A stretch of 30,053 nt of DNA from a virus. Below the pieces are notes generated by a model. The model worked only from the letters and a program-made list of their open reading frames with translations, made no database searches and was not told where the DNA came from. Each line of letters opens with the position of its first letter. Within the stretch, counting starts at the first letter, position 1. The stretch is taken from positions 1 through 30,053 of the IMG/VR virus record IMGVR_UViG_3300032265_000435; one strand, written 5' to 3'. Below are positions 299 through 30,053 of the stretch, one piece after another. Made by a program: the position numbers and the translations under genes.

Positions 299-712
299 CT
301 TTTTCTTACCAATATTATACTTTGTTTCCAATGCCCATTCATTTTTTTCCTTGTGGGAAATTACTTTGATTTGGGATAAGGGAGCATACTCGGTAAAGTA
401 ATCGGGATTATTAATTTTAACTAATCCCCAATCAACCAATAACTTTGAAATTGTGTTTCTGCGCTGTAGATCGTTGTCTGTTAGATCTGCAGATTTACCA
501 TCTAAAGCAAACAGTTCTTTAAAATGGACAATAAAATATCTACCCTGCTTGTGTAAAATATGGCAAGACTGAAATAGTGTTTTGTCCTTACGAGAAGCTA
601 CACCTATTCTAGTTAGAGTTTCACGTACTTTTAAAAAATCGTCGGGTTCGGATAGTATGACTTCCAGAGGATGATACCCCGGGAAATCAATAGAGATTAT
701 ATCAGTACTCAT
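278..712 (-). CDS. regA: RegA translational repressor
   Basis: 144-residue homologue of T4 RegA (about 122 residues), an RNA-binding protein that blocks ribosome access to early mRNAs, including those of the clamp loader genes beside it. The stretch DDFLKVRETLTRIGVASRKD, then LFQSCHIL, YFIVHFKE and the late EWALETKYNIG, all match the family closely. The extra length is a short N-terminal extension (MSTDIISIDFPGYHP). A GTG at 721 is in frame, but ATG at 712 has an AAAGGTGG ribosome site at proper distance and is preferred. It overlaps the gp62 stop by 11 bases, the same gene order as in T4 (45-44-62-regA). In T4 gp43 follows; here hsp20 does. Confidence 0.93.
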   Translation of the reverse strand: MSTDIISIDFPGYHPLEVILSEPDDFLKVRETLTRIGVASRKDKTLFQSCHILHKQGRYFIVHFKELFALDGKSADLTDNDLQRRNTISKLLVDWGLVKINNPDYFTEYAPLSQIKVISHKEKNEWALETKYNIGKKKLTTSTK

Positions 713-1145
713 TCTTACCACCTTTTGTTATTCTTATTCTTAATTCTTTAATAACCGAATCATTTAGAAGTGGGAGTACTTGCTTTGCTTTTTCTGTGCT
801 GTATCCATAGTATTCTTTTACAATTTCCAAATCATCGATTTTCTCAGCCTTGATCCATTTATTGAATCTTTTCTTAGGCCTAATGATATTTATAAGAAAC
901 TGAAATTGTAGCAGTTTATCTATGTGTGGGCGAGAATTCATCTCATTTGCGGGGATTACAGTATCGTGTCCGTATGATAACCCCTTGTTTATAATATAGG
1001 GATTATACTGTTTCTCTGACCAATCGTCAACTATTAGATTTTCCTTACTATGATGTATTGCGTTTATAAAATCAAAGGGGGAGATTGCTGGTGCTTTATA
1101 CGGAACTTCAACAATCTTTTCAACAGATGTTCCAAACAAACTCAT
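702..1145 (-). CDS. 62: Clamp loader small subunit gp62
   Basis: 147 residues, start MSLFG at 1145. In T4 one gp62 joins four gp44 ATPase subunits to open the gp45 clamp and load it at primer ends. The pattern SPFDFINAIHHSKENLIVDD, GLSYGHDTVIPANEMN, FLINIIRPKKRFNKW is that of the short gp62 form seen in marine T4-like phages; T4's own protein is longer. There is no ATPase motif, as expected for this subunit. It starts in an ATGA overlap with the membrane-protein gene's stop and runs into regA, so it is translationally coupled to both. A TTGACG-17-TATAAT promoter-like site lies within it. Confidence 0.88.
   Translation of the reverse strand: MSLFGTSVEKIVEVPYKAPAISPFDFINAIHHSKENLIVDDWSEKQYNPYIINKGLSYGHDTVIPANEMNSRPHIDKLLQFQFLINIIRPKKRFNKWIKAEKIDDLEIVKEYYGYSTEKAKQVLPLLNDSVIKELRIRITKGGKNEY
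1002..1030 (-). promoter_or_regulatory. Near-consensus promoter inside gp62, upstream of regA
   Basis: TTGACG (1030-1025), 17 bases, then TATAAT (1007-1002) on the minus strand: 11 of 12 consensus bases. It would start RNA near 995, about 280 bases before the regA start. The site falls on codons for a conserved part of gp62 (DDWSEKQYNPY), so coding constraint alone may explain part of the match. Confidence is moderate because several perfect sites of the same form occur on this strand. Confidence 0.4.
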
Positions 1146-1429
1146 AATACCATCCTCAATAAACCGATAGTATCTATGGTAGTAAGCAGGAGGTAGTTAG
1201 CAAGCATACCAAATGATTTCCTAGTCCAACTAGCCCAAGCATACATAGCGCAACCACTAATCCAGATAGGGTATAATATAATAAGAGGGGGATTAGGGAC
1301 GGTTGTTGCCATCGTGATAGAACAGCCAACACTGATAGCCCAAGCACAGCACTCAATAAGAAAGCGAAATCTGTTAGAAGCGAAGTCATCTTTTATCCAT
1401 TGTAAGGTAGGTTGAAAAATGTTTATCAT
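1142..1429 (-). CDS. Small inner-membrane protein of unknown function
   Basis: 95 residues with three hydrophobic segments at about residues 22-42, 48-68 and 75-94, and a basic stretch (SWTRKSF) between the second and third, so an integral membrane protein is likely. No enzymatic motif is visible. The sequence pattern (FQPTLQWIKDDFASN, YPIWISGCAMYAWASWTRKS) resembles small proteins I associate with this position in marine T4-like phages, but I know no function. It sits between gp44 and gp62 with ATGA overlaps on both sides, so it is co-expressed with the clamp loader although nothing in it suggests a replication role. A different frame over 1174-1389 is also hydrophobic but is a shadow. Confidence 0.8.
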   Translation of the reverse strand: MINIFQPTLQWIKDDFASNRFRFLIECCAWAISVGCSITMATTVPNPPLIILYPIWISGCAMYAWASWTRKSFGMLANYLLLTTIDTIGLLRMVL

Positions 1430-2367
1430 TTGAATTCTACTGCTGCCATAATCTCAGTCAAACAAGCAACTAGATTAATTTCTTGGTCAGCGCAGAATGC
1501 AGACTTATATTGATAGTCTGCTAATAACAAGACCAACTGTGGAACCTGTTTAACATGATCAGTTAAAGTATCATATAACTTTCTAAAGATAGTTCCAGGA
1601 TCATTGTCAATATTGTTTACGACCCAAGTACGCATCTTTTTCCAATCACCTTCTTTTAAAGAAACAATCAGTTCTTGCATATTGGATTCGCCTAAATTAA
1701 CAAAGATGCCTTCGTCAATCTTTCCCGAGGCTGAGTATCTCTGCAATTCATTTAGAACACGTCTATAGTCAGGGAAATGCTTTTCTATTACCTTTGCGAT
1801 TACTTTGCCGTCGGCATCAATCTTTTCAATTGACATAATCTCGGTAACACGTTTGAAGAATGCTGCCGCAATCTTTGGTCTATCCGCTTTAGGTAATTTA
1901 AACTCAATAACAGCGCATCGAGAATGTAGCGGAGGAATAATTCTATTCTTAAAGTTACAAGTAAGAATGAACCTACAGTTATTTGAAAACTCTTCTATAA
2001 ATGCTCTTAGCGCAGGTTGTGTAGAGTTTGGATTAAGATAATCTGCCTCGTCTAAAATTACAACCTTTGCCTTGCCACTGAATGATACAGTAGATGCAAA
2101 CTGTTTAATCTTTGTACGAAGAACATCAATCCCAGATTCTTCCGAACCGTTAATTACGATATAGTCTGTTTGTAGTTCTTCACATAATGCTCGGGCAACT
2201 GTGGTCTTGCCCATACCTGCCCCACCACATAACAGCATATTCTGTATCTCACCCTTAGACAACATCTCTAGAAAGATGGTCTTTTGGTCTGCGGGTAAGA
2301 TACAGTCTTCTAATTTGCGAGGACGATACTTTTCAACCCACAAAAATTCATTTTCACGATAATCCAT
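1426..2367 (-). CDS. 44: Clamp loader AAA+ ATPase large subunit gp44
   Basis: 313 residues, close to T4 gp44 (319). AAA+ ATPase that forms the motor of the clamp loader. Visible motifs are Walker A GGAGMGKT (residues 48-55), Walker B DEAD (106-109) in VVILDEADYL, a sensor stretch FILTCNFKNRI (about 133-143), and the SRC arginine-finger motif (149-151) characteristic of clamp loaders. The N-terminal WVEKYRPRKLEDCILP is also typical. Start ATG at 2367 has a GAGG ribosome site. It ends in an ATGA overlap with the membrane protein; gp45 lies two small genes upstream, so the whole loader and clamp are in one operon. Confidence 0.96.
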   Translation of the reverse strand: MDYRENEFLWVEKYRPRKLEDCILPADQKTIFLEMLSKGEIQNMLLCGGAGMGKTTVARALCEELQTDYIVINGSEESGIDVLRTKIKQFASTVSFSGKAKVVILDEADYLNPNSTQPALRAFIEEFSNNCRFILTCNFKNRIIPPLHSRCAVIEFKLPKADRPKIAAAFFKRVTEIMSIEKIDADGKVIAKVIEKHFPDYRRVLNELQRYSASGKIDEGIFVNLGESNMQELIVSLKEGDWKKMRTWVVNNIDNDPGTIFRKLYDTLTDHVKQVPQLVLLLADYQYKSAFCADQEINLVACLTEIMAAVEFK

Positions 2368-2909: not shown

Positions 2910-3566
2910 TTACACCACCGAATCTGGTTCCATTGCGATAAAATATCCCAATGGCTTTGTTGCGTGTTTAAATTGGAATGCTTTCTTCTTCGAGATTGTC
3001 ACTGAATAAGCATCAGGAATAATCTTGAAGTTTTCTACTGCCATATGGCAATCAAATGTGTGCTCGCATTTACCGATAACTTTCTTATAGGTATTTGCTG
3101 TATCATTTTTCTTATCACCGATTGTCAAAGTAACATCATCTCCTTTGCAGGAGATTGTGATTGTTGGCGCACCTGTAATAGCAGCCGCTTTCATAATCAT
3201 GTTAACATCTTCGGATGTAAGTTTAAACTCATAGTGTGTATCTACTTCAATATCCTTTGTAGGTGCCGCAACAATAACTGTAGGGCTAGAATAGAAATAT
3301 TCAAATTTACCTGAGTCTTTAGAAATTGTCAAACTCTTCTCACCAAATTCTACATTTTGATTTTCCATTAATGTCAGCAATGCCAACAATGAATTTAAAT
3401 CATAAATTGCTACTTCTTCAGGGAAGTTCTCGGCAACCGTAGCTTTGGCAAAAATGTTTTTTGCTGTACTGATTGTGGATAAGGTATTACCCTTTCTGAT
3501 AAGAATGTTGCTATTAATAGCAGCAAAATTCTTTAGGGTATCAATTGTCTCTTTACTGATCTGCAT
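2910..3566 (-). CDS. 45: DNA polymerase sliding clamp gp45
   Basis: 218 residues (T4 gp45 has 228). The trimeric ring tethers DNA polymerase to DNA and, in T4, also activates late transcription through gp33 and gp55. The N-terminus MQISKETIDTLKNFAAINSN, the FPEEVAIYDLNSLLALLTLM segment and the PTITISCKGDDVTLTIGDKK strand pair match the family; the protein ends AMEPDSVV. Start ATG at 3566 has an AAGGAG site and shares one base with the DUF3310 stop (TAATG). As the clamp, it is the presumed partner of the LF-ending C-terminal tails on the DpdA-like and GT4 proteins in this window. Confidence 0.94.
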   Translation of the reverse strand: MQISKETIDTLKNFAAINSNILIRKGNTLSTISTAKNIFAKATVAENFPEEVAIYDLNSLLALLTLMENQNVEFGEKSLTISKDSGKFEYFYSSPTVIVAAPTKDIEVDTHYEFKLTSEDVNMIMKAAAITGAPTITISCKGDDVTLTIGDKKNDTANTYKKVIGKCEHTFDCHMAVENFKIIPDAYSVTISKKKAFQFKHATKPLGYFIAMEPDSVV

Positions 3567-3853
3567 TATTTAATCTCCTTAGTTTCAATGTCATGCGTAT
3601 ATAAAAGCATTAAAGCATAGTGTAACACCTTTAGTATATCTTGTCTATTCCTTCCGGCTTTCTTTCCATACCTTTGGACATATTTCATTACGTTACCAAC
3701 GGTAAATCCGACACCGTGCCCACTATCAATGACAAATTCAGTTGCCTGAAATTTATTCATTGAATAATGTTCGCCGTAAGTGGCATCGATATATTCTTTA
3801 AACTCTTTAATAAGAGCATCCTCATTATATTTGTAATCTATTGCTTTCGCCAT
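3566..3853 (-). CDS. DUF3310 family protein
   Basis: 95 residues. The core GHGVGFTVGNVMKYVQRYGKK followed by a helix DILKVLHYALMLL is the signature of DUF3310, a small helical family common in phages of many kinds and of unknown biochemical function; it is sometimes annotated as a nucleotide-kinase-like protein without proof. Start ATG at 3853 follows an AAGGA site and overlaps the end of the upstream glycosyltransferase gene by 16 bases. It bridges the sugar island and the clamp gene, so these two functionally different regions are on one transcript. Confidence 0.8.
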   Translation of the reverse strand: MAKAIDYKYNEDALIKEFKEYIDATYGEHYSMNKFQATEFVIDSGHGVGFTVGNVMKYVQRYGKKAGRNRQDILKVLHYALMLLYTHDIETKEIK

Positions 3854-8448: not shown

Positions 8449-8794
8449 TAGTATCAATTCCTTTGTATAATTTAACAGAATCTTCTACCAATGATCTGTT
8501 TTGTTTAATTGCAGTATCAACCATTAGGTTAATAGCTTGTACATAACGAGGGCGCTTTACTTTAAAACAAATATCGCATTTGCGTTTAAGTTCTGCAATC
8601 TCAGTATCAGACTTAGCGGCCTGAATCGCATCTTCCAACATCCACATACGAATATGAATAATAGCAAGTTTTTCAATCACCTCGCCTAGGTTATCAGTTT
8701 CCACATATGTAGAATCAGGCAAGCCGCCTTGATCCAAAACACGTTTAACTGTTTTCTCGATTATTTCCTCAATACTATTACCTAAATTTGACAT
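8441..8794 (-). CDS. DUF4254-like helical protein
   Basis: 117 residues, mostly helical. LGEVIEKLAIIHIRMWMLED followed by SDTEIAELKRKCDICFKVKR resembles the core of DUF4254, a short family whose genes sit beside lipopolysaccharide and capsule transferase genes in many bacteria; its function is unknown. Two cysteines (CDIC) are visible, but a metal site cannot be claimed. GGAG ribosome site precedes the ATG; it overlaps the ColD-like gene by 17 bases. Family placement is from pattern memory and is moderate; position in a sugar cluster fits. Confidence 0.5.
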   Translation of the reverse strand: MSNLGNSIEEIIEKTVKRVLDQGGLPDSTYVETDNLGEVIEKLAIIHIRMWMLEDAIQAAKSDTEIAELKRKCDICFKVKRPRYVQAINLMVDTAIKQNRSLVEDSVKLYKGIDTNE

Positions 8795-9956: not shown

Positions 9957-10888
9957 AACAATCCCTTTTCTTTTTTATACCAAGCAATAGTGCGCTTCAA
10001 TCCCTCGTCAAAATTTACCTTGGCATTCCAACCAAGAGATTTTAATTTACTATTATCCATTTTACGTCTAGGGGTACCATTTGGTTTATCTGTATTCCAA
10101 ACTACCCTACCCGTAAACCCAAACTCTTTAGTTAACTTATCAACAAGATCTTTGATAGTTAATTCTTCATCGCTTCCTACATTAACAAATTCTTTTTCAT
10201 TATAGTTTTGCATCAACCAATAACAAGCATCTGCAAGATCATCTACATATAAAAACTCTCTTGTAGGTGTTCCGTCTCCCCAACATTCAATACTGTCTTC
10301 GCCATTCTTTATAGCATTATGCATCTTAGTAATAATACCAGGAATAACATGACCATGCTCAGGAATAAAGTTATCATTAATGCCATATAAGTTTGCGGGC
10401 ATACAACTAATAGCGTTAAACCCATACTGGCGTCTGTAGTATTCGCACATACGTAGACCAGTAATTTTTGCTAATGCATACCCCTCGTTCGTCGGCTCAA
10501 GTGGAGCAGTAAGAAGATATTCTTCCTTGATAGGTTGAGGGGTAACCTTTGGATAGATGCAAGCAGAACCTAAGAACAATAATTTCTTAGCACCGTTCCT
10601 ATAAGCAGCATCTATAACATTCGTTTGAATCTGTAAGTTGTCGTAAATAAATTCACCAGGGTTTGTCCAGTTCCAATTTATACCCCCAACTTTAGCAGCA
10701 CATAAAAATACATAGTCAGGTTTTTCTGTAGCGAAAAATACATTAACTGCAAGTTGATCTCGAAGGTCTAATTCTTGTTTAGATTTAAGAACAAAATTTG
10801 TATAACCTTCTTCTTGTAGTCTTCTAACAATAGAGGATCCTACTAATCCTTTATGTCCTGCTACGTATATTTTACTATCTTTTTCCAT
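9953..10888 (-). CDS. fcl: GDP-L-fucose synthase (epimerase/reductase)
   Basis: 311 residues, the usual length. NADPH-dependent 3,5-epimerase and 4-reductase that turns GDP-4-keto-6-deoxymannose into GDP-L-fucose. Rossmann motif GHKGLVG (11-17), catalytic Ser in GSACIYP (107-113) and YALAK (137-141) with the Tyr/Lys pair are all present, as are VGGINWNWTNPGEF and PANLYGINDNF, which are specific to Fcl/WcaG. AAGGA ribosome site before ATG at 10888. With gmd it forms the complete de novo pathway. ColC, the colitose-pathway reductase, is homologous, so this enzyme might also act on the ColD-like product; fucose is the primary reading because a GT10 enzyme is present. Confidence 0.93.
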   Translation of the reverse strand: MEKDSKIYVAGHKGLVGSSIVRRLQEEGYTNFVLKSKQELDLRDQLAVNVFFATEKPDYVFLCAAKVGGINWNWTNPGEFIYDNLQIQTNVIDAAYRNGAKKLLFLGSACIYPKVTPQPIKEEYLLTAPLEPTNEGYALAKITGLRMCEYYRRQYGFNAISCMPANLYGINDNFIPEHGHVIPGIITKMHNAIKNGEDSIECWGDGTPTREFLYVDDLADACYWLMQNYNEKEFVNVGSDEELTIKDLVDKLTKEFGFTGRVVWNTDKPNGTPRRKMDNSKLKSLGWNAKVNFDEGLKRTIAWYKKEKGLL

Positions 10889-10889
10889 T

Positions 10890-11528
10890 TTAATTCCTTG
10901 CTATAAAAACATAATCATGTTTAGATAATTGTTCTTTGAATATATGTGTTTCATCTAATAGCTTTTTAACATCCTCGATATCTAAATGCCATTCAATTAG
11001 AAGAATCTTTGGGCAATATTTTTTTAAATCTAATCCCTTTAGAACTTCTATCTCATATCCTTCAACATCAAGTGAAAAGAAATCTATTGTCTTTATATCT
11101 TGTGCTTCAAGAATACTATTTAATGTTGCTGTCTGTACTGTAAATTCTTCAGTTTTATCTGAATCTGTTATAGGATTAATCCAATCTGATACTTGACGAA
11201 TAGGAGAATCCGCAGTTGAGGTCATCAAACCTGGGTCGCCGTTATAAACAACCCGTTTCATCATCTTTATTTCTGTATCCTCAAAGTCTTCACCCACTAA
11301 AGCATAGTTATATACTAAAGAATTTAGTCTGTTATTACGACAAACTATAGCAGACTCTATATTAGGTTCAACTAAAATACCTGTCCAATTTTTATATTTT
11401 TCTAAGTACCAAGTATTGCTCTGAGTATATCCATCTGCGCCACCTACTTCAATAAAAAAACCATTATCATAGTTTAGATATTTTTCAGTGACAACCCGGT
11501 TCACATCATTTAACGATGGAGGATACAT
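10890..11528 (-). CDS. FkbM-family SAM-dependent methyltransferase
   Basis: 212 residues from ATG at 11528, one base after the gmd stop. GFFIEVGGADGYTQSNTWYL is motif I with the SAM-binding Gly/Asp; GILVEPN is the acidic motif II; TIDFFSLDVEGYEIEVLKGL is the FkbM signature. These enzymes usually O-methylate sugars in glycans or natural products. In this island it probably methylates a fucosyl or deoxy sugar residue, which commonly caps surface glycans. An in-frame TTG at 11558 would overlap gmd, so it is not preferred. There is no ribosome site, implying translational coupling to gmd. Confidence 0.85.
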   Translation of the reverse strand: MYPPSLNDVNRVVTEKYLNYDNGFFIEVGGADGYTQSNTWYLEKYKNWTGILVEPNIESAIVCRNNRLNSLVYNYALVGEDFEDTEIKMMKRVVYNGDPGLMTSTADSPIRQVSDWINPITDSDKTEEFTVQTATLNSILEAQDIKTIDFFSLDVEGYEIEVLKGLDLKKYCPKILLIEWHLDIEDVKKLLDETHIFKEQLSKHDYVFIARN

Positions 11529-11529
11529 A

Positions 11530-12543
11530 TTACGAAAAGTTAATGCACATGTCTTCAACTAAATCGTTGAAGGAATGTTTAGGAGTCCAACCGAGCACAC
11601 CCCTGGCCTTTGTAGAATCTCCCAATAAAGTTTGAACTTCAGCAGGGCGGAAATACTTAGGATCAACTCTAATAACTACTCTATTAGTATTAGTATCAAT
11701 ACCCACTTCATTTAAGCCTTCGCCTTCCCAGCGAATATTGAGAGCAAAATATGGGGCACAATGTTCCACGAATTGTTTAACTGTATATTGTTCGCCTGTT
11801 GCAATAACGAAGTCATCTGGTGTATCTTGTTGTAACATTAACCACATTGCTTCGACATAGTCTTTAGCATGTCCCCAATCTCTCAATGCTGTTAGATTGC
11901 CTAAAGTCAAACATTCTTGGCGACCAGCACCAACTGCTTCTAATCCATTTACAATCTTCTTAGTAACGAAGTTAAAACCCCTGCGAGGAGATTCGTGATT
12001 AAACAAAATACCTGAGCAACAGAACATATTATATGATTCGCGATAGTTCTTAACAATCCAATATGCATATAACTTAGCAACACCGTACGGTGATCTTGGA
12101 TAGAAAGGGGTAGTTTCTTTTTGTGGGATTTCCTGAACTAATCCATATAGTTCAGATGTTGATGCTTGATAGATTTTGGTTGTTTTTTCCATTCCTAATA
12201 ATCTAACGGATTCTAAAATCTTAAGTGTACCCAATCCATCAACCATTGCTGTATATTCAGGTGTATCGAAGGAAACCTTGACATGGCTTTGTGCTGCTAA
12301 ATTATAGATCTCAGATGGATTATGTTTCTTCAATACGTTCATAATAGATAAAGAATCTGTTACGTCGCCATAGTGAAGATGAAGATTTGGATTGCTATAG
12401 ATATGGTCAATGCGACCGGTGTTCATAGAAGAACTGCGACGAACAATTCCGTGAACCTCATAACCTTTTTCTAATAGTAATTCTGCAAGATAAGAACCGT
12501 CTTGCCCAGTAATGCCCGTAATGAGAGCAACTTTGTTTGCCAT
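11530..12543 (-). CDS. gmd: GDP-mannose 4,6-dehydratase
   Basis: 337 residues from ATG at 12543, chosen because AGGAG lies 7 bases upstream and the protein then begins [18 protein letters not shown], exactly where Gmd proteins start; an upstream in-frame ATG would add 26 unrelated residues. Converts GDP-D-mannose to GDP-4-keto-6-deoxymannose using bound NADP. Rossmann loop TGITGQDG (9-16), catalytic STSELYG (128-134) and YGVAK (153-157) are intact, as are [15 protein letters not shown] and [14 protein letters not shown]. First enzyme of the fucose/colitose branch here. GDP-mannose itself must come from the host, since no manB/manC is in the window. Confidence 0.95.
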
Positions 12544-12544
12544 G

Positions 12545-13372
12545 CTATAGTCTCCTAAATGATATATGATCTTCGTATTGCAAGATCTTATTAATGTCGT
12601 GTTGCGCAGTATTCCACTCACCTACTTTAAAATATTTATTGCCTGAGACATCCGCCATAAGAACATTAAGTTGCTCTTTTAGCATAGTCGGATTCAAACT
12701 ATTTTCCAAGTATAAATCTGTACAGTATAAATTTTCTAAATTAGGCGAACAGAAAGCTGCAGATATTGCAAAAGAACCTGCACCTGATGTTGCTAAATTT
12801 TTTGCTCGTAATAATAAAGTATAACTTTCCATTTCATTTAATGTTAGAATGTTTGGACAGATATATTTCAAGTATCCTACAATAGGGTTATGATTATCCT
12901 CAGCAACAAAGATAACCTTGCCTGAATACATTATGTATAATTGTATATAATATGCCAATGGATTTTGCGTATGTGTCGCAGGCCATCTTGTATACAGATC
13001 TCCACTTCTAATGTGTACTATTAGATCTTCTACCGGGGTGTTCAATTCTTCATGATTAATCTTTAGAGCAGGTAAAATATATTCTTCGCATATACTTTTT
13101 CTTTGCCTATTTAGATCATCTATATCTACATCAAAGTCTGCATCTGGACCATTGTAAAAATAAAACCAATTATGAGAATCTTCTTTTATTTTAAATTGAT
13201 TGCTACCAAAGTTGTAATTTATTGCGTTTAAGTAAACACTCTCAGGAGAAGAAAACGAAATGCCATTTTTTCTACAAAAGTAAATGGCATTGGATATTTG
13301 TTGTATGTTATTTCCTAGTCTACCAAACCATCTAGGAATAAAAGTATCATGAACTATTTCATTAGTGTGCAT
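12545..13372 (-). CDS. Fucosyltransferase-like protein with HxRxGD motif
   Basis: 275 residues. [20 protein letters not shown] near the N-terminus and [15 protein letters not shown] (HIRSGD at 120-125) are the two hallmarks of GDP-fucose-using folds such as GT11 alpha-1,2- and GT23-type transferases, where the HxRxGD Arg binds the donor phosphate. [12 protein letters not shown] and the later [18 protein letters not shown] fit the second, donor-binding Rossmann half. Exact family is uncertain. It is the first gene of the sugar island, directly after the stable hairpin at 13385-13402 and immediately before gmd, consistent with using GDP-fucose. Confidence 0.65.
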
Positions 13373-21670: not shown

Positions 21671-22120
21671 TTAGCCTTCGTAAATAGCACTGTTAGCACC
21701 ATGTTCTGCACACTCTACACGAACACAATAACAACGACCATTTGTTTTTTCTTCAATTAATTGATTCGCAAAATTAAACGCATGCTCAGCAAATTTCTCT
21801 GCACCAACACCGTCAAAGATTCTAATCTCTGCTAGATCCAGTGCTTCTAATTCTTGGAATTTAGCTAGATGTGGGTCTGCTTTATCCAATGCTAACTTAT
21901 GATCAAAATTGTCTTCGAGCCATGCTTTGAGTGATTTTAATCCACCAAAGTCTACTGCCCAATTTTTATCATCTAATTTATCACAACCAAATGTAAATGT
22001 AAATGCTAGACTATATCCGTGTAGTAAATGACAATGCGAATGATCTGCATTAGGTTGTCTAAATACGGCACTTAAACCAATGTTATGTCCGTAATGTTTT
22101 GTCGAGAAATATTTAGCCAT
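21671..22120 (-). CDS. queD: 6-carboxy-5,6,7,8-tetrahydropterin synthase QueD (divergent zinc motif)
   Basis: 149 residues, T-fold of the PTPS/QueD family. Converts 7,8-dihydroneopterin triphosphate (FolE product) to 6-carboxytetrahydropterin, second step towards preQ0. Cys30 in HSHCHLLHGYS is the expected catalytic Cys; the family's HGH zinc pair appears as HGY (34-36), so zinc ligands must be arranged with nearby histidines. WAVDFGGLKSLKAWLEDNFD and the C-terminal VECAEHGAN are family-like. HGY forms seem common in one bacterial and phage subfamily, so activity is plausible. A GGAGG site precedes the start. Distinct from the second, more divergent QueD-like gene at 24334-24759. Confidence 0.85.
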   Translation of the reverse strand: MAKYFSTKHYGHNIGLSAVFRQPNADHSHCHLLHGYSLAFTFTFGCDKLDDKNWAVDFGGLKSLKAWLEDNFDHKLALDKADPHLAKFQELEALDLAEIRIFDGVGAEKFAEHAFNFANQLIEEKTNGRCYCVRVECAEHGANSAIYEG

Positions 22121-22159: not shown

Positions 22160-23194
22160 TTATATAGCGGGTTGAATGACGTTTAAAGACCGCTGCTTTA
22201 ATCTATGATAATATTTAGAGTTATACCAATCGTATAGACTTTCGATAATATCATTTAATTTTCTTTGAGGTTTCCATCCTGTATCTGCTAATAACTTTTC
22301 TGCACTAGCAATCAATGTTGCAGGATCACCTTCTCTTCGTACATCTATATGACATACTATTCTATTGTTTATTGCTTCGTTATCAATTAAAAAATCTTCA
22401 ACTGCAGTAAACACTTCGAGATTGGAATGTCCTTTTAATGTTCCTATATTATATATCCCTTCGATATCTTTGTCAATAGCCAATACATGTGCATCGGCTA
22501 TATCTGATACATGAATATAATCTCTAACACAAGTACCATCTCGTGTAGGAAAGTCTGCGCCATTAATTGTAAAATCTTTACCGTCTAAAGCAGCCTCAAA
22601 TAGTCTAGCAAATATATGTGTGGCATCAGGTTCCTGTCCATGTTCCCCGCCTTCGACTGCACCACATGCATTAAAATATCTATAGGAAACATACTTTAAA
22701 CCATATGCAATTTTAAATCTCTCTAGCATCATCTCTGTAATTAGCTTAGATTCGCCATATGCAGATATTGGTTTAGTTTCAGAACCTTCAGTCAGTATCA
22801 TACCTATTGGTTCGCCATAAACCGAAGCACTGCTACTAAAAATAAACTTAACATTCGGTGCCCAACGGCGAATATAATCTAAATATTTTAATGTCTTTGC
22901 TACATTATTATCGAAGTAGTCTGAAGGTTTTTCTACACTTGGACCAACTAAACTCGTACCTGCACAATGTATAACTGCAACAGGATTACGCTCAAGATGT
23001 TCTAATGAGAATGGATTAGTAAAACATTCATTCTCAAATTGATCTACATAATGTTCCATATGCTTATGTAGTTTTCTTCTGTCAACTCCTATTACTCTAT
23101 ATCCATTTTCCTTCAGTGCAATACATGTAGCGCCACCGATGTAACCTGCAGCACCTGTTACTATAACAGTTTTAGTATTTTGATTCTGGTACAT
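22160..23194 (-). CDS. galE: UDP-glucose 4-epimerase
   Basis: 344 residues from ATG at 23194; the upstream in-frame start would lie deep within the preceding gene. Extended SDR with NAD loop GAAGYIG (14-20), SSSASVYGE and YGESK holding the catalytic Ser/Tyr/Lys, plus RYFNACGA and RDYIHVSDIADAH typical of GalE. Interconverts UDP-glucose and UDP-galactose. Of the sugar genes, this one is not in the GDP-fucose island but between two glycosyltransferase/deazaguanine genes and queD, suggesting it supplies a donor for the nearby transferases. It overlaps the upstream transferase gene by 23 bases and carries an internal promoter-like site. Confidence 0.92.
   Translation of the reverse strand: MYQNQNTKTVIVTGAAGYIGGATCIALKENGYRVIGVDRRKLHKHMEHYVDQFENECFTNPFSLEHLERNPVAVIHCAGTSLVGPSVEKPSDYFDNNVAKTLKYLDYIRRWAPNVKFIFSSSASVYGEPIGMILTEGSETKPISAYGESKLITEMMLERFKIAYGLKYVSYRYFNACGAVEGGEHGQEPDATHIFARLFEAALDGKDFTINGADFPTRDGTCVRDYIHVSDIADAHVLAIDKDIEGIYNIGTLKGHSNLEVFTAVEDFLIDNEAINNRIVCHIDVRREGDPATLIASAEKLLADTGWKPQRKLNDIIESLYDWYNSKYYHRLKQRSLNVIQPAI
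22448..22476 (-). promoter_or_regulatory. Perfect sigma70-type promoter inside galE, upstream of queD
   Basis: TTGACA (22476-22471), 17 bases, TATAAT (22453-22448) on the minus strand. RNA would start near 22441, about 320 bases before queD. The bases encode IDKDIEGIYNIG; the GIYNIG part is conserved in GalE proteins, so the -10 may be partly fixed by coding. Confidence 0.45.
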
Positions 23195-24341
23195 ATTTTC
23201 TATAATCTTTAGTATTACGGAACCAATGGTCATTGGTGCTAAACATGATATCCAAACACCTATCAATAGTGCCGGTTGTCCAATTAGATAAATGACCCAT
23301 TTTCTTTCTAGGATTAACTAGTAAATGATCTAATTTATTTTTAACATCTTCCATAGACCAAGGAATATATAAACATTCTGCATCATTAGCAAATGTTTCG
23401 GGGAAAGATCTATATGCAGGATATAAACAGTTTGTACCTAGTGCATCTGCTTCTGATGCTGTGTTACTTACCCAATCCTGTAACGCACAATTAAACAATA
23501 CTCGAGAGTCAGCTAGTAATTCATAATACTCATTCTTTTTAAGATTTTCATAGATCTTAAAATTGGCAGTCTTTTCTAATTCCTTCGCTCTGCTTAAATA
23601 TTTCTCATCATTACTACGTAATGGTCCGCCGGATAAGACAGCAAACTCCACATCTCGATTATATTTACCATAGTCTTCAATTAGATCCATAAAGAATCCT
23701 GGTTGCTTTTCTTGGTCGAATCTAGCAGCAAACACTACTCTCTTTTTGCGATTAATAAAAGGTTTAATTTCTTGTACGCGACTTTGAACTTCATCTTTGT
23801 CAAATGCTAAACCTGAGATATTGAAGATTGGCGCTTCCCATCCTGCAATCTTCATATGTGCAACCATTTCTTCATTCGAAGCAAGAATGCCTGTGACAAA
23901 ATGATCTGTCATTTTCTCATAGAAGCCCATCCACTTCTGCATATCCCACACGTGCAAGAAATCATCTGGATCGATTGTCTGAGCCAAACAACGAACAAAT
24001 ATACGGGGATGGTATTCCCATTCCATCTGATCCATGATATAAGGTAACACTTCCATTCCAGGAGTAAACATATCCTCAAAGAAAATAGTATCTTCCCAAT
24101 TAATTTCACCTGCCTTCATCTTTGCTACAAGCTTTGCCATTTGTGTCAGAGAATAATAACTACGACCGTGAGCATCTAATACCTGACCAGTTACAATAGA
24201 CTTAGAACTATCTAATAGATCACCATGAATAACCTCATAATCAATACCGCGACGCTTAAACGCATCTTCACTCCAATGTTGGAGTTGTAGTGTATATCGA
24301 CCTTCATAGGGCTCTAAACCCATATAATATAATTTACCCAT
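23172..24341 (-). CDS. GT-B glycosyltransferase (GT4-like)
   Basis: 389 residues. The second half is GT4-like: RKKRVVFAARFDQEKQPGFF (199-218) is the start of the donor domain, AVLSGGPLRSN and FKIYENLKKNEYYELLADSR follow, and DWVSNTASEADALGTNCLYP is the region of the conserved E-x7-E that binds the nucleotide sugar (SEADALG). The N-terminal half, with IFFEDMFTPGMEVLPYIMDQ, is unusual for polysaccharide transferases and may define the acceptor. Lies between galE and the QueD-like gene, overlapping both. Acceptor could be DNA, protein or glycan; DNA is suggested only by context. Confidence 0.75.
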   Translation of the reverse strand: MGKLYYMGLEPYEGRYTLQLQHWSEDAFKRRGIDYEVIHGDLLDSSKSIVTGQVLDAHGRSYYSLTQMAKLVAKMKAGEINWEDTIFFEDMFTPGMEVLPYIMDQMEWEYHPRIFVRCLAQTIDPDDFLHVWDMQKWMGFYEKMTDHFVTGILASNEEMVAHMKIAGWEAPIFNISGLAFDKDEVQSRVQEIKPFINRKKRVVFAARFDQEKQPGFFMDLIEDYGKYNRDVEFAVLSGGPLRSNDEKYLSRAKELEKTANFKIYENLKKNEYYELLADSRVLFNCALQDWVSNTASEADALGTNCLYPAYRSFPETFANDAECLYIPWSMEDVKNKLDHLLVNPRKKMGHLSNWTTGTIDRCLDIMFSTNDHWFRNTKDYRKYVPESKY

Positions 24342-24759
24342 TTACATACATCCTTGGTGTAACATCTTTGCCTTTGATATGCGAGAAATACATTCTGCAA
24401 CCATTCTCTCCATCTTCCGATACTTCAATTACATAGTCTCTATCTGGCCATGTGCTTATACATTTATTATGTAGATCCTTTGCCATCATTTCACAAGACT
24501 TATAATCTAATTGTAATGTTCCATCAGCATACCAACGCTCCATTATTCGTTTTGCTTGAATAAATTCTACATCTCTGTCATCATGAAATACCTGCATCTC
24601 AACTCTGAAATGAAAGATATGTCTATGAGGCGTTCCTAAAAATGAAACATCTAACCAATCGCCTGTAGCCAACTTTGGATCAGTTGCTGCCGCAGGGTAC
24701 TTATGGATACCTTCTTTCTGAAAGGTAACCCAAATATAACTATCTGTTTTTACAATCAT
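24334..24759 (-). CDS. QueD/PTPS-like T-fold protein
   Basis: 141 residues. FLGTPHRHIFHFRVEMQVFH carries HRH (45-47); DYKSCEMMAKDL (86-96) corresponds to the PTAENLA region of QueD; IEVSEDGENGCRMYF corresponds to the ExTxxxxA strand at QueD's C-terminus. Together they suggest a tetrahydropterin-synthase fold, but sequence identity is low and the catalytic Cys before the HxH is missing. It lies directly downstream of the DpdA-like gene in an ATGA overlap. It might bind a pterin or 7-deazaguanine and hand it on, or be a second, specialised QueD. I recall similar phage proteins annotated only as hypothetical. Confidence 0.5.
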   Translation of the reverse strand: MIVKTDSYIWVTFQKEGIHKYPAAATDPKLATGDWLDVSFLGTPHRHIFHFRVEMQVFHDDRDVEFIQAKRIMERWYADGTLQLDYKSCEMMAKDLHNKCISTWPDRDYVIEVSEDGENGCRMYFSHIKGKDVTPRMYVNG

Positions 24760-26045
24760 GCAAATAAGTCCTCAAGTGAAGATGGTGCTACTGCGTTGAC
24801 AGGTTCTGAATCCATGAATCTACCTACGTTCTTTTCCCAATGAATAAAATCATCGTTTGTCTTTACATCAAATAAAGTTGCATATTCATTCTCACAACCT
24901 TTATCTCTACAGAATCTTAAAAATTCTTCTTTACTATTCATTAAATTGGAAACATCCAAAGTAAAATTATGTACATTTGTTAAGATGAATGCTAGTCTTG
25001 CTCGCATAACATCAATGAATTTTCCACCTTGTTCTAAATACAGACCAACAGAAATATTCATTAACTTGTGATATTCTTCGGGTGTGTAATCTGTATCACA
25101 TACTGAATTAATCTCGTTAACAACTGTTCTATAAATGTTAGAATATTCTCTACCCATCTTTACAGAAGAACCACCGTAGTCGCTAGGATTCTTTTTCTTG
25201 CTGTGTGAGAAGTAAAACAATCCATTATCCAAAGACATAGAATGTGTTGTCGAGTCATATGAAATATCAATGCCTTCATATAGACCAGTTTGACTAAATA
25301 ACAAATATGGTAAAATACGTTTAAGCGCACCTACGCCCAATACGTGTAAATGAAATGGTCTTGCCAATGGAACAGAGTTTACATAAAATGCTCTCTTAAC
25401 ATCTTCTAACGGACCCATACCTAGTGCAGCTGATCCCATAGCAACACCGCCAATACGATGATGTAGTTCTTTTGGAACCTCATCTAATAAAAACTCACCC
25501 CATGACTTATAAGTATCTGCACCAGAACCTTGAAGAATGATAAATGGTCTACATTTACTATTCAATGAATCGAATTTTAAAATCTGATCCTTGACGTTTT
25601 TGCCTGTTGCTCTGGCATAAGTCTCGAAATTTGCCATATCAACATATCGACGCTTAGTATCAATCTTTGCCGATATACCATCTGCAGATGTAGACTTTAC
25701 AGGAATCTCATCAAATGCCATTCCAATGTCTGCGTATGTTCCTTGATTCTCATAAACTTTATTTCGTGTTTCTGGAGTATTAGAAAGTCCGCGAGTAACA
25801 ATCTGTAAACCTCCAGAGTCAGCATGAATATTTTTAATGGCAGGTCTATACTTTTGTAGTTTCTTACCAAAGTTCTTTTCTGTAAATCCATTATACAATA
25901 ATGAAAACTGATGATTGTTCTTATTATGAACAGTCTTCCACATCATATCAGTAATCATTTTTAAAGTGTCAGGATCTTCACATTGCTCAGATCCTAGTCT
26001 AAGATATGCGGGACCTGATATAACGTATTCTAATTGTCTGCTCAT
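24756..26045 (-). CDS. dpdA: DpdA-like TGT homologue, predicted 7-deazaguanine-DNA transglycosylase
   Basis: 429 residues. TIM-barrel of the tRNA-guanine transglycosylase superfamily: IHADSGGLQI (73-82) holds the general base Asp76 and substrate-binding loop; HRIGGVAMGSAALGMG (196-211) the GG(V)A segment; HVLGVGALKRILPYL (234-248); EGIDISYDSTTHS (257-269) contains the likely nucleophile, Asp264. The zinc CxCxxC of TGT is reduced to Cys316 followed by non-Cys residues, though the later HN (359-360) is kept. DpdA enzymes replace guanine in DNA with preQ0 or derivatives; the surrounding folE, queD and queE favour that over tRNA. The C-terminus SSLEDLFA looks like a clamp-binding tail. ATGA overlaps on both sides. 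Confidence 0.82.
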   Translation of the reverse strand: MSRQLEYVISGPAYLRLGSEQCEDPDTLKMITDMMWKTVHNKNNHQFSLLYNGFTEKNFGKKLQKYRPAIKNIHADSGGLQIVTRGLSNTPETRNKVYENQGTYADIGMAFDEIPVKSTSADGISAKIDTKRRYVDMANFETYARATGKNVKDQILKFDSLNSKCRPFIILQGSGADTYKSWGEFLLDEVPKELHHRIGGVAMGSAALGMGPLEDVKRAFYVNSVPLARPFHLHVLGVGALKRILPYLLFSQTGLYEGIDISYDSTTHSMSLDNGLFYFSHSKKKNPSDYGGSSVKMGREYSNIYRTVVNEINSVCDTDYTPEEYHKLMNISVGLYLEQGGKFIDVMRARLAFILTNVHNFTLDVSNLMNSKEEFLRFCRDKGCENEYATLFDVKTNDDFIHWEKNVGRFMDSEPVNAVAPSSLEDLFA

Positions 26046-27409
26046 GAAAATAAACTTTCTAAAGTGTGTGCTGTATCTTCTTTTGGAACAAAATTTGGAT
26101 CCTTGGATAGATAGGTGTTCTCATCTGTATAAATTATATTAAATTTTGTCTTGTTTGTCAATACAGAACGGACATCATCCACAGATAAATCTTTCCTATT
26201 TAATTTAACTATGAAATCCGAATAATTGATATTATCATAATCGTTAATTGTTGCCCTATCTGAATTCGATTCTGCAGGCTTAAATGATTCAAAAACATCT
26301 ATCCAAGCCTGTATTCCTACTGCATGTTCTGCTATAATACTTTGTAGTGGCGACTTACTATACCAAACTCTAGAATCGGCAAAGTCCTCGTATAGTTTTA
26401 AAATTAATCTAGGAATGTTTTTCTTTTCCTCAGAAAAATACCATTGATTACTAAAGTTATCTAACCAGGACATGCCCTTTATAGCAACTGTAGGCAACTG
26501 TCCCATACATTCATAAAATGCTAAACCAAAGCTTTCTCTAATTGCGGGGTTATACGCAACTCTAGCAGAAGTCATAAAGTTAACTTTCTCTTGACCATAT
26601 ACGCCTATCTTTATTTCATATTTAGCGCCTATCGCTTTTAGAGCTTCTTCAAACTTTTTGGCTCCGTTTGTATTGGTTATAACCTTTGCAGGTAATCCTG
26701 TTTCCTTAATAACACGAATAAACTCCTCAGGATTTTTTCTAGGCTCCCAACGACCAATCCACAGTACGCCTTCTCTAGGTTTATTATTTTCTTCCAATAA
26801 TGTTTTTTCAGGCATAGGAATAGGAAGCTCATATGAATTAAATAATTTTTGAGCAAGCAGTTCATTGCGATTACGTAAAGTTTGTGTGCCAATAGTAATA
26901 CCTTTAACTCGCATCAACGCATTAAACACTTCATTGAATGATTCTGTAAATTCATTCTTCCATGATCTATCATCTAAAAAGACCATACTTTCATTATGAG
27001 TATAATATATTACCTGCACAGTTTTATGTAGGTTCAAGGCATAGATGCCGGGGAATGATTCTAGCGTATTACAAATAATAATATCATATAGATTTTTATT
27101 CAGAGCGTACATCATAGAATCTCTGAATGAAGACATCTTTTCAAAGTTATACGAGTCCTCAAACATAAATGTTTTGGTATGAGTACTGTAAGATCTTGCT
27201 GTAGGAGACCATATAAAATTAGCTCCAACTGATTCTAGATATTCTTTGAATGCTAGATTAGAGGTTGGCTTATCTGTAATGATATCTATCTTATAACCGA
27301 GAGGCGTAAAAGTCTCAATAAAACTTTTAGCAAATTGACCTAATCCCCCGTGAGGAATAGTGTGTTGATCACTTAAACAAAAAGCAATACGCTTCTTATA
27401 TGTATTCAT
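26042..27409 (-). CDS. GT4 glycosyltransferase with DpdA-like C-terminal tail
   Basis: 455 residues. GT-B fold: HGGLGQFAKSF (20-30) is the acceptor-side glycine loop, LWIGRWEPRKNPEEFIRVIK (216-235) starts the donor domain, ESFGLAFYE (292-300) is the E-x7-E nucleotide-sugar motif. After about residue 380 comes an extension rich in Asp/Asn/Lys that ends HTLESLFS, nearly the same as the SSLEDLFA end of the neighbouring DpdA-like protein. Sugar and acceptor unknown; sharing a tail with a DNA-modifying enzyme suggests DNA as acceptor. In T4 the alpha-glucosyltransferase of DNA interacts with gp45. Last codons contain a perfect promoter for dpdA. TAATG junction with the exonuclease gene. Confidence 0.8.
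   Translation of the reverse strand: MNTYKKRIAFCLSDQHTIPHGGLGQFAKSFIETFTPLGYKIDIITDKPTSNLAFKEYLESVGANFIWSPTARSYSTHTKTFMFEDSYNFEKMSSFRDSMMYALNKNLYDIIICNTLESFPGIYALNLHKTVQVIYYTHNESMVFLDDRSWKNEFTESFNEVFNALMRVKGITIGTQTLRNRNELLAQKLFNSYELPIPMPEKTLLEENNKPREGVLWIGRWEPRKNPEEFIRVIKETGLPAKVITNTNGAKKFEEALKAIGAKYEIKIGVYGQEKVNFMTSARVAYNPAIRESFGLAFYECMGQLPTVAIKGMSWLDNFSNQWYFSEEKKNIPRLILKLYEDFADSRVWYSKSPLQSIIAEHAVGIQAWIDVFESFKPAESNSDRATINDYDNINYSDFIVKLNRKDLSVDDVRSVLTNKTKFNIIYTDENTYLSKDPNFVPKEDTAHTLESLFS
26133..26161 (-). promoter_or_regulatory. Perfect sigma70-type promoter for the DpdA-like gene
   Basis: TTGACA (26161-26156), 17 bases, TATAAT (26138-26133) on the minus strand, in the last part of the GT4 gene. 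RNA would start near 26126, only about 80 bases before the dpdA ATG. The bases encode a non-conserved tail (LTNKTKFNIIY), so coding constraint is a poor explanation and a real promoter is likely. Confidence 0.65.
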
Positions 27410-27919: not shown

Positions 27920-28561
27920 TTATTTTTCCATTAATCTATTCGTAAATTCTAATAATAATTTGTGCTGTTCACCGTTGTGATATTTGCCTTTTAGCCAACT
28001 ATAACTATCATACCAAAATTTTTCACTCTCAGGGTGACATCCTATTATTCCGATGTTCTTTTGTATGACCGCCATAGGGTCACCATTTGCATATGTAGCG
28101 ATTGTTTCATAATCTCCATCGCCAACCACAGCACAACCGTCGTAAAAAAACATTTTTGTATCAGTTCCATGCCAGTTAATTTTAATGTTTTTCGCATGAG
28201 GTCTCCTTGTATCCGTGTTAGGTCTTCTTATATATTGTACTGTATCTATATTGTCTAGTATATTTAGATAATGTTTTCCTGCCCAATATCCGCCCATACA
28301 TATACCTAAATACTTACCACCCTGTTTAACGAATTTCTTAATTCGTTTAGCATTATGCTTAAAAAGATTTTTATATGAATTAGAATCACCAAAGCCCCCT
28401 GGCACAATAATCATATCAACATTGTCGAAGAAGTTTTCTTCTAATTCGTTTTTGCTAAATATTTTAAATGTGTACTTATTGCCTAAGGCTTTCATTATGC
28501 CGTTACTGCTTTGTACAGAACACTTAGGATCTGCTATGAATAAATCACTAGTAGGTTTCAT
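27920..28561 (-). CDS. Class I glutamine amidotransferase-like protein (BPL_N-like)
   Basis: 213 residues. DMIIVPGGFGDS (49-60), then GGKYLGICMGGYWAG with nucleophile Cys88, and GIIGCHPESEKFWY with His177 and Glu179, form the Cys-His-Glu arrangement of class I amidotransferase-like proteins; the PGGF and GxCxG pattern is close to the BPL_N group. There is no fused synthase domain, so ammonia, if released from glutamine, must go to a partner, or the protein is a hydrolase of other chemistry. Its position between folE and the DpdA-like gene invites a role in amidating preQ0, but that is inference. ATGA overlap with the tiny membrane gene. Confidence 0.7.
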   Translation of the reverse strand: MKPTSDLFIADPKCSVQSSNGIMKALGNKYTFKIFSKNELEENFFDNVDMIIVPGGFGDSNSYKNLFKHNAKRIKKFVKQGGKYLGICMGGYWAGKHYLNILDNIDTVQYIRRPNTDTRRPHAKNIKINWHGTDTKMFFYDGCAVVGDGDYETIATYANGDPMAVIQKNIGIIGCHPESEKFWYDSYSWLKGKYHNGEQHKLLLEFTNRLMEK

Positions 28562-28680
28562 TTTTCATCTATTTTCTTTTCAATAGGCGGTGGAAAATAT
28601 GGTTCGATTACATAGTGGTTAGCTCCCCACCAACCAAATGCAGTAATGAATCCATAGCAAAGTATTTCAAGTATCATCAT
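28558..28680 (-). CDS. Tiny single-span membrane protein (40 aa)
   Basis: Occupies the entire gap between folE and the amidotransferase gene, with ATGA overlaps at both ends (start 28680, stop 28558). One hydrophobic helix at about residues 3-20 (ILEILCYGFITAFGWWGA) is followed by NHYVIEPYFPPPIEKKIDEK, a proline-rich acidic/basic tail, consistent with an N-in single-pass topology or membrane anchor. The GWWGAN and VIEP pattern recurs, as I remember, in small proteins of marine T4-like phages; function unknown. Too short for default ORF calling but supported by gene packing. Confidence 0.75.
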   Translation of the reverse strand: MMILEILCYGFITAFGWWGANHYVIEPYFPPPIEKKIDEK

Positions 28681-29363
28681 TTTCCGCACATTCTCGCAAT
28701 GCTTAAAAATTCATTTCTAGCAGATGCGTCAGTTTTAAAGCCGCCACCTAGACGAACTGTTACTGTGGATGAACCTGTATCTTCAACACCTCTAGATTTA
28801 ACACAATAGTGTTGTGCATCAATCATTACCGCAACATCTTCAGTCTCCAGTATAAATTGGAGAGTATGGTAGATCTGTTCAGTGAGTCGTTCTTGGATTT
28901 GAGGGCGCTTGCTGAAATACTCAACAATGCGGTTAATTTTAGATAGTCCGAGGACTTTCTGTTTAGGAACATAAGCAACGGTAGCCAAACCATCAATAAC
29001 AACAAAGTGATGTTCGCAATTACTTTGGACATTGACGTTGCGTTCAACGACCATTTCATTGTAATGCATCTTGTTATCAACAGTCGTACACTTTGGAAAT
29101 GCATCATAATCTAATCCCCAGAAAATTTCATTAACATACATCTTAGCAACACGCTTAGGTGTTTCAATTAAACTATCATCAGTTAAATCTAAACCTAGAT
29201 AACCCATGATCTCTCGAAAATGACTTTCGATTCGCTCAATTTTTTCTTTACGATCTAAGTAATTAATATCTGTTCTTGTAGGTGTTTCAACACCCATTTT
29301 TAATAGATGCTCATGCACCCTTTGCCCTAACTCAGGGTCAGTTTTTGTCTTGTTGTATGACAT
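28677..29363 (-). CDS. folE: GTP cyclohydrolase I
   Basis: 228 residues. Converts GTP to 7,8-dihydroneopterin triphosphate, first step for folate and for 7-deazaguanine synthesis. Zinc ligands are in SNCEHHF (C116, H119 region) and QHYCVKSRGVED (C187); ETPKRVAKMY (67-76) and GLSKINRIVEYFSKRPQIQE are the family's other conserved blocks. Full length. The start has an AAGGA site. Present beside queD and queE and not with folate genes, so it supplies the deazaguanine route. Upstream lies a late-promoter-like sequence. Confidence 0.96.
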   Translation of the reverse strand: MSYNKTKTDPELGQRVHEHLLKMGVETPTRTDINYLDRKEKIERIESHFREIMGYLGLDLTDDSLIETPKRVAKMYVNEIFWGLDYDAFPKCTTVDNKMHYNEMVVERNVNVQSNCEHHFVVIDGLATVAYVPKQKVLGLSKINRIVEYFSKRPQIQERLTEQIYHTLQFILETEDVAVMIDAQHYCVKSRGVEDTGSSTVTVRLGGGFKTDASARNEFLSIARMCGK

Positions 29364-29639: not shown

Positions 29640-30053
29640 TTAAGTTCCCCATGCATTTTTGAACAGAGGTATTTGTAATCGGTCCGAGTATCTATATCCG
29701 TTTCGCATTGCGATTTCAGCCACGGACCTATTATTAAGACTGTACAACTGCTCAGTACCACCGACAGGCATAAGGTAAATATGACCTTTAAACCCAGCTT
29801 TACGATACGCACCAATTGCACATTCTGCATCTTTATAATCCTCTTCTGTAGCAATGACAAATTTTAAATATGTCGTGCCAAGAGATTGATATTGTAAAAC
29901 CACATCGGGTTTAATAGCATCGTCCCATGGCTCACCTGAGCATGGTAATTTTGCACTAACACTAAATGTAATTTCTCTATTTCTCCAACGGCCCCATTCT
30001 GTTAAGTATATTGCAAACTCTTCAGTTATGTCTTGAGTACCATTTGTTTCAAA
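29640..30053 (-). CDS. queE: 7-carboxy-7-deazaguanine synthase QueE (C-terminal 137 residues, start outside window)
   Basis: Frame is open to the window edge at 30053, so the N-terminal part with the radical-SAM CxxxCxxC is not visible. What remains starts FETNGTQ (the ETNGT strand-loop of QueE), continues with FSVSAKLPCSGE, QYQSLGTTYLKFVI, GHIYLMPVGGTEQ and ends YRYSDRLQIPLFKNAWGT, the standard QueE C-terminus. It turns 6-carboxytetrahydropterin into 7-carboxy-7-deazaguanine. QueC, needed next for preQ0, is not in the window and may lie just upstream. A different frame over 29624-29860 with a lipobox-like sequence is a shadow. Confidence 0.88.
   Translation of the reverse strand, partial: FETNGTQDITEEFAIYLTEWGRWRNREITFSVSAKLPCSGEPWDDAIKPDVVLQYQSLGTTYLKFVIATEEDYKDAECAIGAYRKAGFKGHIYLMPVGGTEQLYSLNNRSVAEIAMRNGYRYSDRLQIPLFKNAWGT

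Follow-up and report, generated by a model that had tools for sequence, protein, structure and literature searches.

A polymerase-like C-terminal tail on a DpdA transglycosylase and an adjacent glycosyltransferase suggests clamp-tethered DNA modification in a T4-like cyanophage-type genome

Results

IMG/VR record IMGVR_UViG_3300032265_000435, analyzed here in full as a window of 30,053 bases, is part of a genome of T4-like cyanophage type, in which two adjacent genes, one for a DpdA-type DNA 7-deazaguanine transglycosylase and one for a GT-B glycosyltransferase, encode proteins that share a C-terminal tail. The DpdA protein ends ...VNAVAPSSLEDLFA (tail SSLEDLFA) and the glycosyltransferase ...PKEDTAHTLESLFS (tail HTLESLFS), with the motif in each finishing one residue ahead of the stop, and the genes share a 4-base overlap. 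Sharing of this tail suggests, from the sequence, that the phage modifies its DNA while it is being copied, and we consider it highly likely that both enzymes carry an equivalent of the clamp-interacting peptide of the phage DNA polymerase, gp43. An earlier note made from the DNA alone had pointed to these ends and proposed that the enzymes are recruited by gp45, the sliding clamp, to modify DNA behind the fork. The ends on adjacent reading frames are exactly as it described, gp45 is encoded in the window as stated (Table 1), and its recruitment interpretation is supported by the sequence comparisons given here.

The same tail is found on the polymerase. No gp43 gene is present in the window record, which does hold gp45, gp44 and gp62, so comparison with the own polymerase was made in relatives. 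The suggestion that the phage's own gp43 might be tailed thus holds for the relatives, while the window offers no gp43 to which it could apply. Wherever gp43 could be read in a close relative, it has the tail. In the complete genome of Synechococcus phage BUCT-ZZ01, which can be grown on Synechococcus elongatus PCC 7942 and where the dpdA and glycosyltransferase genes lie side by side, gp43 ends STLDDFFS, DpdA ASLDSFFD, and the glycosyltransferase GSLEDFFND, and the RB69 gp43 peptide SLFDMF aligns directly to this gp43 tail. Ten uncultured relatives with close DpdA homologues have a gp43 ending in ATLEGLF[GSA], and gp43 and DpdA are both tailed in phages ACP17 (SLDDLFE and TLDELFE, respectively), Ps15 (SLEDLFGW and SLDDLFG), and X1 (SLESLFG and SLEELFG). 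T4, as the positive control, has tails on gp43 (ASLDFLFG), gp55 (SLDFLYEAND), and gp33 (TLDFLL). The gp55 of BUCT-ZZ01 (L005 8799-9458) has no C-terminal tail; its clamp motif may instead be NSLEKFFDD, which lies inside the protein, about 35 residues from the end. In many of these phages gp43 gives two matches or is interrupted (G008, G019, G029, G030, G040, G063, G064, G069; loci L521-L530, L138-L140, L545-L550), as inteins, introns or split genes would produce.

Tails are also matched within individual phages. Across 31 non-redundant records that have both genes, the DpdA tail scores a mean of 17.65 against the gp43 tail of its own phage and 11.89 against those of other phages, a similarity reached in none of 20,000 permutations, while a control segment 14 residues upstream shows nothing. 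Even odd variants come in pairs inside one phage (KSIDDWI/TTIDDWF, NILDL/NTLDF, DISSFF/SIDDFF, and TLEGLIV/TLEGLFE).

These pairings bear on the possibility that the tails bind a different clamp, above all the beta clamp of the host, to which proteins bind through QLxLF-type motifs. Bacterial clamp-binding motifs also end in Leu or Phe, and the infected cell contains the beta clamp. The tails, however, lack the Gln of the bacterial motifs, the odd variants have their counterparts on the polymerase of the same phage genome, and gp45 is present in 24 of the 30 DpdA records tested. Moreover, gp43 ends with the same tail, and its partner in T4 and RB69 is gp45 (PMC12746103, PMC3012046). Binding to the host clamp therefore appears quite improbable.

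The occurrence of the tail is far beyond chance. A strict pattern, [ST][LF][DE].[LFMV]F lying no more than 3 residues from the C-terminal end, was applied to 1,817 predicted open reading frames (ORFs) from ten sequences (the window, BUCT-ZZ01, ACP17, Ps15, X1, three large contigs, and two T4 segments). It matched 19 ORFs, where 0.09 would be expected from the internal frequency of the pattern, and these were 8 gp43, 7 DpdA and 4 glycosyltransferase proteins, with no others. Among 1,382 ORFs near distant DpdA genes, only five non-DpdA proteins have the tail: three GT-B relatives (L372, L459, and L487), a gp43 fragment, and a GT-A-like protein. Two other patterns were dropped. One, at the DNA level, was uninformative, performing no better than a reversed control; the other, a looser protein pattern, lacked specificity, as it also matches look-alike ends of gp26-like baseplate hub proteins in BUCT-ZZ01 (GLETFFA; L005 7844-8554, phrog_150), Ps15 (GLEDFFG; 95916-96677) and X1 (GLDDFFL; 84546-85328), all following a Cys-rich segment. 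The DpdA of siphophage CAjan, tried as a negative control, comes from another DpdA family, and its end happens to be MELF.

Conservation in homologues, which the earlier note had made a test of its proposal, extends to essentially all complete close homologues and to most distant DpdA lineages. Of 65 non-redundant DpdA lineages reaching down to ~25 to 30% identity, 39 have the core motif at the end (1.2 expected), 19 have a related hydrophobic and acidic end, 2 end in LPI, and 5 have none. Two tailed DpdA proteins come from contigs assigned to metagenome-assembled genomes, of an Anaerolineae bacterium (L358, TTLDDFFE) and of Nitrosarchaeum (L359, SSLEEFF). Both assemblies hold gp45 and gp43 homologues, with the L358 dpdA adjoining gp45, and the contigs are therefore probably phage.

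Within the clade of the window, all 45 unique DpdA 3' ends and all 46 unique glycosyltransferase ends have the same L-E-x-L-F, even though synonymous positions are saturated (pS, the synonymous proportion, 0.57 for DpdA and 0.90 for the glycosyltransferase). The ratio of nonsynonymous to synonymous change (pN/pS) is 0.10 in the DpdA core versus 0.44 in the ten residues before it, and 0.07 in the glycosyltransferase core versus 0.82, the latter value being inflated because that linker varies in length; the contrast indicates purifying selection on the motif and not on the linker. Short C-terminal motifs can arise readily, and tails that came by chance, or were inherited by descent or recombination with no function, would gain some credit from a similarity to the own gp43 that becomes marginal once body divergence is corrected. 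Against such an origin stand the excess of matches over expectation, the low core ratios (0.07 to 0.10) under saturated synonymous change, and the presence of tails on non-homologous enzymes. This explanation is already largely refuted, and we regard it as extremely improbable.

The two enzymes have unrelated folds, as the earlier note had held. For DpdA, sequence searches against Pfam, NCBIfam and PDB gave no match, and the fold is seen only through an AlphaFold2 model (mean predicted local distance difference test [pLDDT], 93.6), whose top matches include the tRNA-guanine transglycosylase (TGT) 7b2i (E, 2e-8) and 7ui4 (E, 8e-8), the solved structure of a DNA preQ0 insertase DpdA. The motifs DSGGLQ, FDEIP and ISYDSTTH are invariant or nearly so across 54 homologues, and the TGT-like aspartates within them, D76 (DSGGLQ), D112 (FDEIP), and D264 (ISYDS), are invariant. 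The window protein shares phrog_10773 with a protein of KVP40/nt-1-like Vibrio phages, and the related DpdA2 of nt-1 is active and inserts dPreQ0 (PMC6884629). By analogy with relatives of this kind, for which activity has been shown (PMC6884629), the window DpdA would put a 7-deazaguanine into DNA.

The AlphaFold2 model of the glycosyltransferase (pLDDT, 89.6) matches GT4 enzymes in PDB with E values of ~1e-12 to 1e-9, among them sucrose-phosphate synthase and MshA (~1e-11), and is predicted to adopt a two-Rossmann GT-B fold with a GT4 C-terminal domain. The Pfam match (PF00534) falls below the curated cutoff. Between the GT-B fold and the tail, residues ~385 to 437 form a conserved extension, LSVDDVRSVLTNKxKFNIIYTDxxTYLSKD. 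In both models the tail appears to follow a flexible linker, as had been proposed: pLDDT drops from ~95 in the body to 69 over DpdA residues 421 to 429 and, in the glycosyltransferase, from ~95 to 65 and then 54 in the last two blocks. DpdA residues 424 to 428 and glycosyltransferase residues 450 to 454 are modeled, at low confidence, as a short helix that would resemble the bound SLDFLF of T4 gp43.

A further argument comes from phages in which the position upstream of dpdA has changed hands. In the sister clade of L042 and L049, with the same operon, the gene directly upstream of dpdA encodes an unrelated 300-amino-acid GT-A-like protein; this gene too overlaps dpdA by 4 bases, and its product ends KSSLESLFL. 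The GT-A assignment is based on DND and EDxxF motifs and on weak matches to PHROG glycosyltransferases, and a profile of the protein found no credible match in PDB. Distant relatives near other DpdA genes end PSLEDLFS (L374) or ASLEDLF; one group (L358 and L607) ends SILDMM, and another distant relative (L615) ends KLF. That one slot holds either of two unrelated glycosyltransferases, both with this tail, is difficult to account for unless the tail has a function.

The slot also informs the idea that the tail is a docking peptide, joining DpdA to the glycosyltransferase or to another partner, and that its likeness to gp43 is superficial. Adjacent, overlapping genes whose products are both tailed are in line with such docking. 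That gp43 is tailed too, as is the unrelated GT-A-like protein, speaks against it, and the DpdA proteins of ACP17, Ps15 and X1 have tails although no tailed glycosyltransferase was found in those phages. We consider docking of this sort very improbable.

Binding of the tails to gp45 is, by contrast, very probable on these sequence comparisons. The T4 gp43 peptide 892-SLDFLF-897 is a clamp-interacting peptide that forms a single-turn helix in a gp45 pocket, and removal of the last six residues of gp43 abolishes clamp association (PMC12746103); the gp43, gp55 and gp33 tails are interchangeable (PMC2988020). The pocket itself gives a mixed picture: the RB69 residues Tyr39, Ile107, Phe109 and Val217 (PMC3012046) align to F39, I106, V108 and F209 of the window gp45, which has an aromatic or aliphatic residue at four of five RB69 pocket positions, but two other pocket residues are not matched (see below). 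In the mechanism we propose, the tail at the end of its flexible linker would be the equivalent of the gp43 clamp-interacting peptide and would dock in the hydrophobic pocket of gp45, the one that also takes the polymerase tail, on rings remaining on newly replicated DNA. Docking would keep both enzymes on the nascent duplex, where DpdA would exchange guanines for a 7-deazaguanine and the glycosyltransferase would probably add a sugar to the DNA, most simply onto the deazaguanine, processively behind the fork. With gp45 rings tethering both enzymes, modification would follow the fork, a coupling that we infer.

Several observations weigh against this mechanism. RB69 pocket residue Trp199 (PMC3012046) is opposite an alignment gap, and the window gp45 has Ile in place of Arg32. 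The DpdA2 of KVP40-like Vibrio phages has no recognizable tail, and with nt-1 DpdA2 active (PMC6884629), the tail is not needed for catalysis. In T4, clamp binding is reported not to be the main determinant of the share of glucosylation contributed by the alpha-glucosyltransferase (AGT) (PMC13216743). Finally, the similarity of DpdA tails to the own gp43 is marginal once divergence of the protein bodies is taken into account (partial Mantel r = 0.197, p = 0.05), so shared descent could account for part of the likeness; the permutation result is strong, but with the partial Mantel test at this level we dropped co-variation of the two tails as proof of co-evolution.

The substrate of the glycosyltransferase is a separate matter. 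Because the tail is shared by two kinds of glycosyltransferase in one slot, it argues for a glycosyltransferase step on DNA, and action of the window enzyme on DNA is likely; that the deazaguanine is its acceptor is conceivable, at a little under even chances. It could instead be that DpdA is clamp tethered while the glycosyltransferase acts elsewhere, on a soluble deazaguanine precursor or a surface glycan, using the clamp for localization only. GT4-type enzymes are broad, some close structural matches glucosylate pterins (5zes and 9v0w), and other parts of the window hold several sugar-nucleotide genes. An enzyme working on a soluble or surface substrate would gain little from a clamp tail, however, and the two non-homologous glycosyltransferases of the slot are tailed, whereas the neighboring glycosyltransferase of a second type (Table 1) is not. 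A substrate other than DNA is accordingly unlikely.

Genomic context

The surroundings of dpdA form a 7-deazaguanine operon with FolE, QueD, the end of QueE, a phrog_17812 protein, a second glycosyltransferase and an epimerase (Table 1). No QueC was found in the 30,053-base fragment, which has FolE, QueD and partial QueE, so the inserted base is given here only as a 7-deazaguanine. A glutamine amidotransferase-like protein (BPL_N/GATase; 27920-28561) is a member of the operon in the window and in L014 and not in the L042 clade; with QueC absent from the fragment, it could have a role in the final chemistry of the base. The phrog_17812 protein keeps its position directly after dpdA in L014, L042 and L459. 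The second GT-B protein, of the GLEPYExRYTLQL type, ends VPESKY with no tail, and its relatives adjoin DpdA in BUCT-ZZ01, ACP17, X1, L042 and L374. Farther away, positions 3838 to 12621 hold a run of glycosyltransferase-like, aminotransferase and GDP-sugar genes (GDP-mannose dehydratase-like and GDP-fucose synthase-like), apparently a large sugar cassette.

Table 1. Features of the window, with the evidence for each assignment
Feature	Position	Strand	Evidence
DpdA2-type DNA 7-deazaguanine transglycosylase, 429 aa	24756..26045	-	phrog_10773, E 3e-95
DpdA tail codons, SLEDLFA	24759..24779	-	LExLF conservation, low pN/pS, short helix
GT-B (GT4-like) glycosyltransferase, 455 aa	26042..27409	-	weak PF00534, PDB profile match 6eji, AlphaFold2 model
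Glycosyltransferase tail codons, TLESLFS	26045..26065	-	LExLF invariant; BUCT-ZZ01 homologue ends SLEDFFND
gp45 sliding clamp, proposed partner	2910..3566	-	phrog_223, E 6e-66; PF09116; PDB 1czd and 1b77, E ~1e-17
gp44 clamp loader subunit	1426..2367	-	phrog_168, E 3e-118
gp62 clamp loader subunit	702..1145	-	phrog_225, E 1e-39
FolE, GTP cyclohydrolase I	28677..29363	-	PF01227, E 1e-61
QueD-like 6-carboxytetrahydropterin synthase	21671..22120	-	phrog_2389, E 3e-40
QueE, C-terminal part, runs off the record	29640..30053	-	C-terminus as in QueE of L014 and BUCT-ZZ01
Small conserved protein, phrog_17812, 3' of dpdA, without tail	24334..24759	-	
Second GT-B glycosyltransferase, GLEPYExRYTLQL type at start of protein	23172..24341	-	PF00534, E 9e-7

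Discussion

How phages modify their DNA fast and fully enough to escape restriction is commonly treated as a question of how active and how strongly expressed the enzymes are. Clamp tethering would offer a concrete physical mechanism for a whole family of enzymes that exchange bases and for the glycosyltransferases that accompany them, one that builds on a peptide whose clamp binding is structurally established in T4 and RB69 gp43. It would also provide a simple sequence tag for spotting new DNA-modifying enzymes in uncultured phages.

A broader idea, which we put forward tentatively, is that phages with gp45 use a portable clamp tag to build a replication-coupled line of DNA hypermodification, with any enzyme that has to work on nascent DNA acquiring the tag of the clamp ligands of its own phage. 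The tagged enzymes would cover base exchange, two unrelated glycosyltransferase folds and perhaps, through a gp33-type LPL end, the amide ligation of CmoY. If this is true, DNA-modifying enzymes so far unrecognized could be predicted from the tag, which here would indicate a glycosylated 7-deazaguanine, of which we found no description in the literature searched.

The CmoY lead comes from cyanophage S-B43 (L597 47774-48589), in which this DNA-modifying amide ligase ends GTLPL and gp33 ends AKLPL. All 28 of 28 CmoY homologues have a [TIV]LP[LI] end, and such an LPL/LPI-type end may be a second clamp tag of the gp33 type. An LP[LIV] end occurs in 5 of the 1,817 ORFs, with ~1.3 expected; the motif is short and less specific and therefore stays a lead. 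CmoX and the glycosyltransferases checked in S-B43 have no tail, and the gp43 ORF is broken in that record. In many of these phages gp33 ends KLPL, KLPI or KLPV and not TLDFLL (L555 in G001, L554 in G002, L557 in G003, L561, L560, and others), and some DpdA proteins end LPI (L447, L469, and L360).

Comparison with known systems

The S-B43 system of CmoA, CmoX and CmoY (PMC12783734) is likewise one of cyanophage DNA hypermodification, with different chemistry and a weaker type of tail. The DpdA2 enzymes of nt-1- and KVP40-like Vibrio phages are of the same enzyme family and the same PHROG as the window DpdA (PMC6884629), and these Vibrio proteins are tailless.

Among phage DNA-modifying enzymes, T4 AGT is a glycosyltransferase that binds gp45 of its own phage (PMC13216743), a likeness to the association predicted here. 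It differs in its acceptor, hydroxymethylcytosine, and is not among the structural matches listed for the window glycosyltransferase. The earlier note had invoked T4 for both the gp43 peptide and the interaction of AGT with gp45, and both precedents hold (PMC12746103, PMC13216743); AGT itself ends KEQFDIITK, however, and we rejected it as a tailed precedent, so that the analogy is one of outcome only.

The tails resemble the clamp-interacting peptide (CIP), or sliding clamp-binding motif (SCBM), of T4 and RB69 gp43, gp55, gp33 and ligase, which is similarly a C-terminal hydrophobic and acidic peptide after a linker; SLDFLF of T4 gp43, SLDFLYEAND of gp55 and TLDFLL of gp33 resemble SLEDLF and TLESLF of the window. 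The T4 and RB69 carriers are proteins of replication, transcription and ligation, whereas here the peptide is on DNA-modification enzymes. A search of the literature on DpdA with the clamp, or on phage clamp-binding motifs with DNA modification, returned nothing relevant. The gp45 clamp-interacting peptide itself is known; what is new, within the literature searched, is to find it on a 7-deazaguanine transglycosylase and on two kinds of glycosyltransferase partner. A parallel outside phages is Dnmt1 with PCNA, in which a DNA-modifying enzyme is likewise tethered to a sliding clamp and new DNA is modified, although that system is eukaryotic, works through a PCNA-binding motif, and serves maintenance methylation (PMC9690074).

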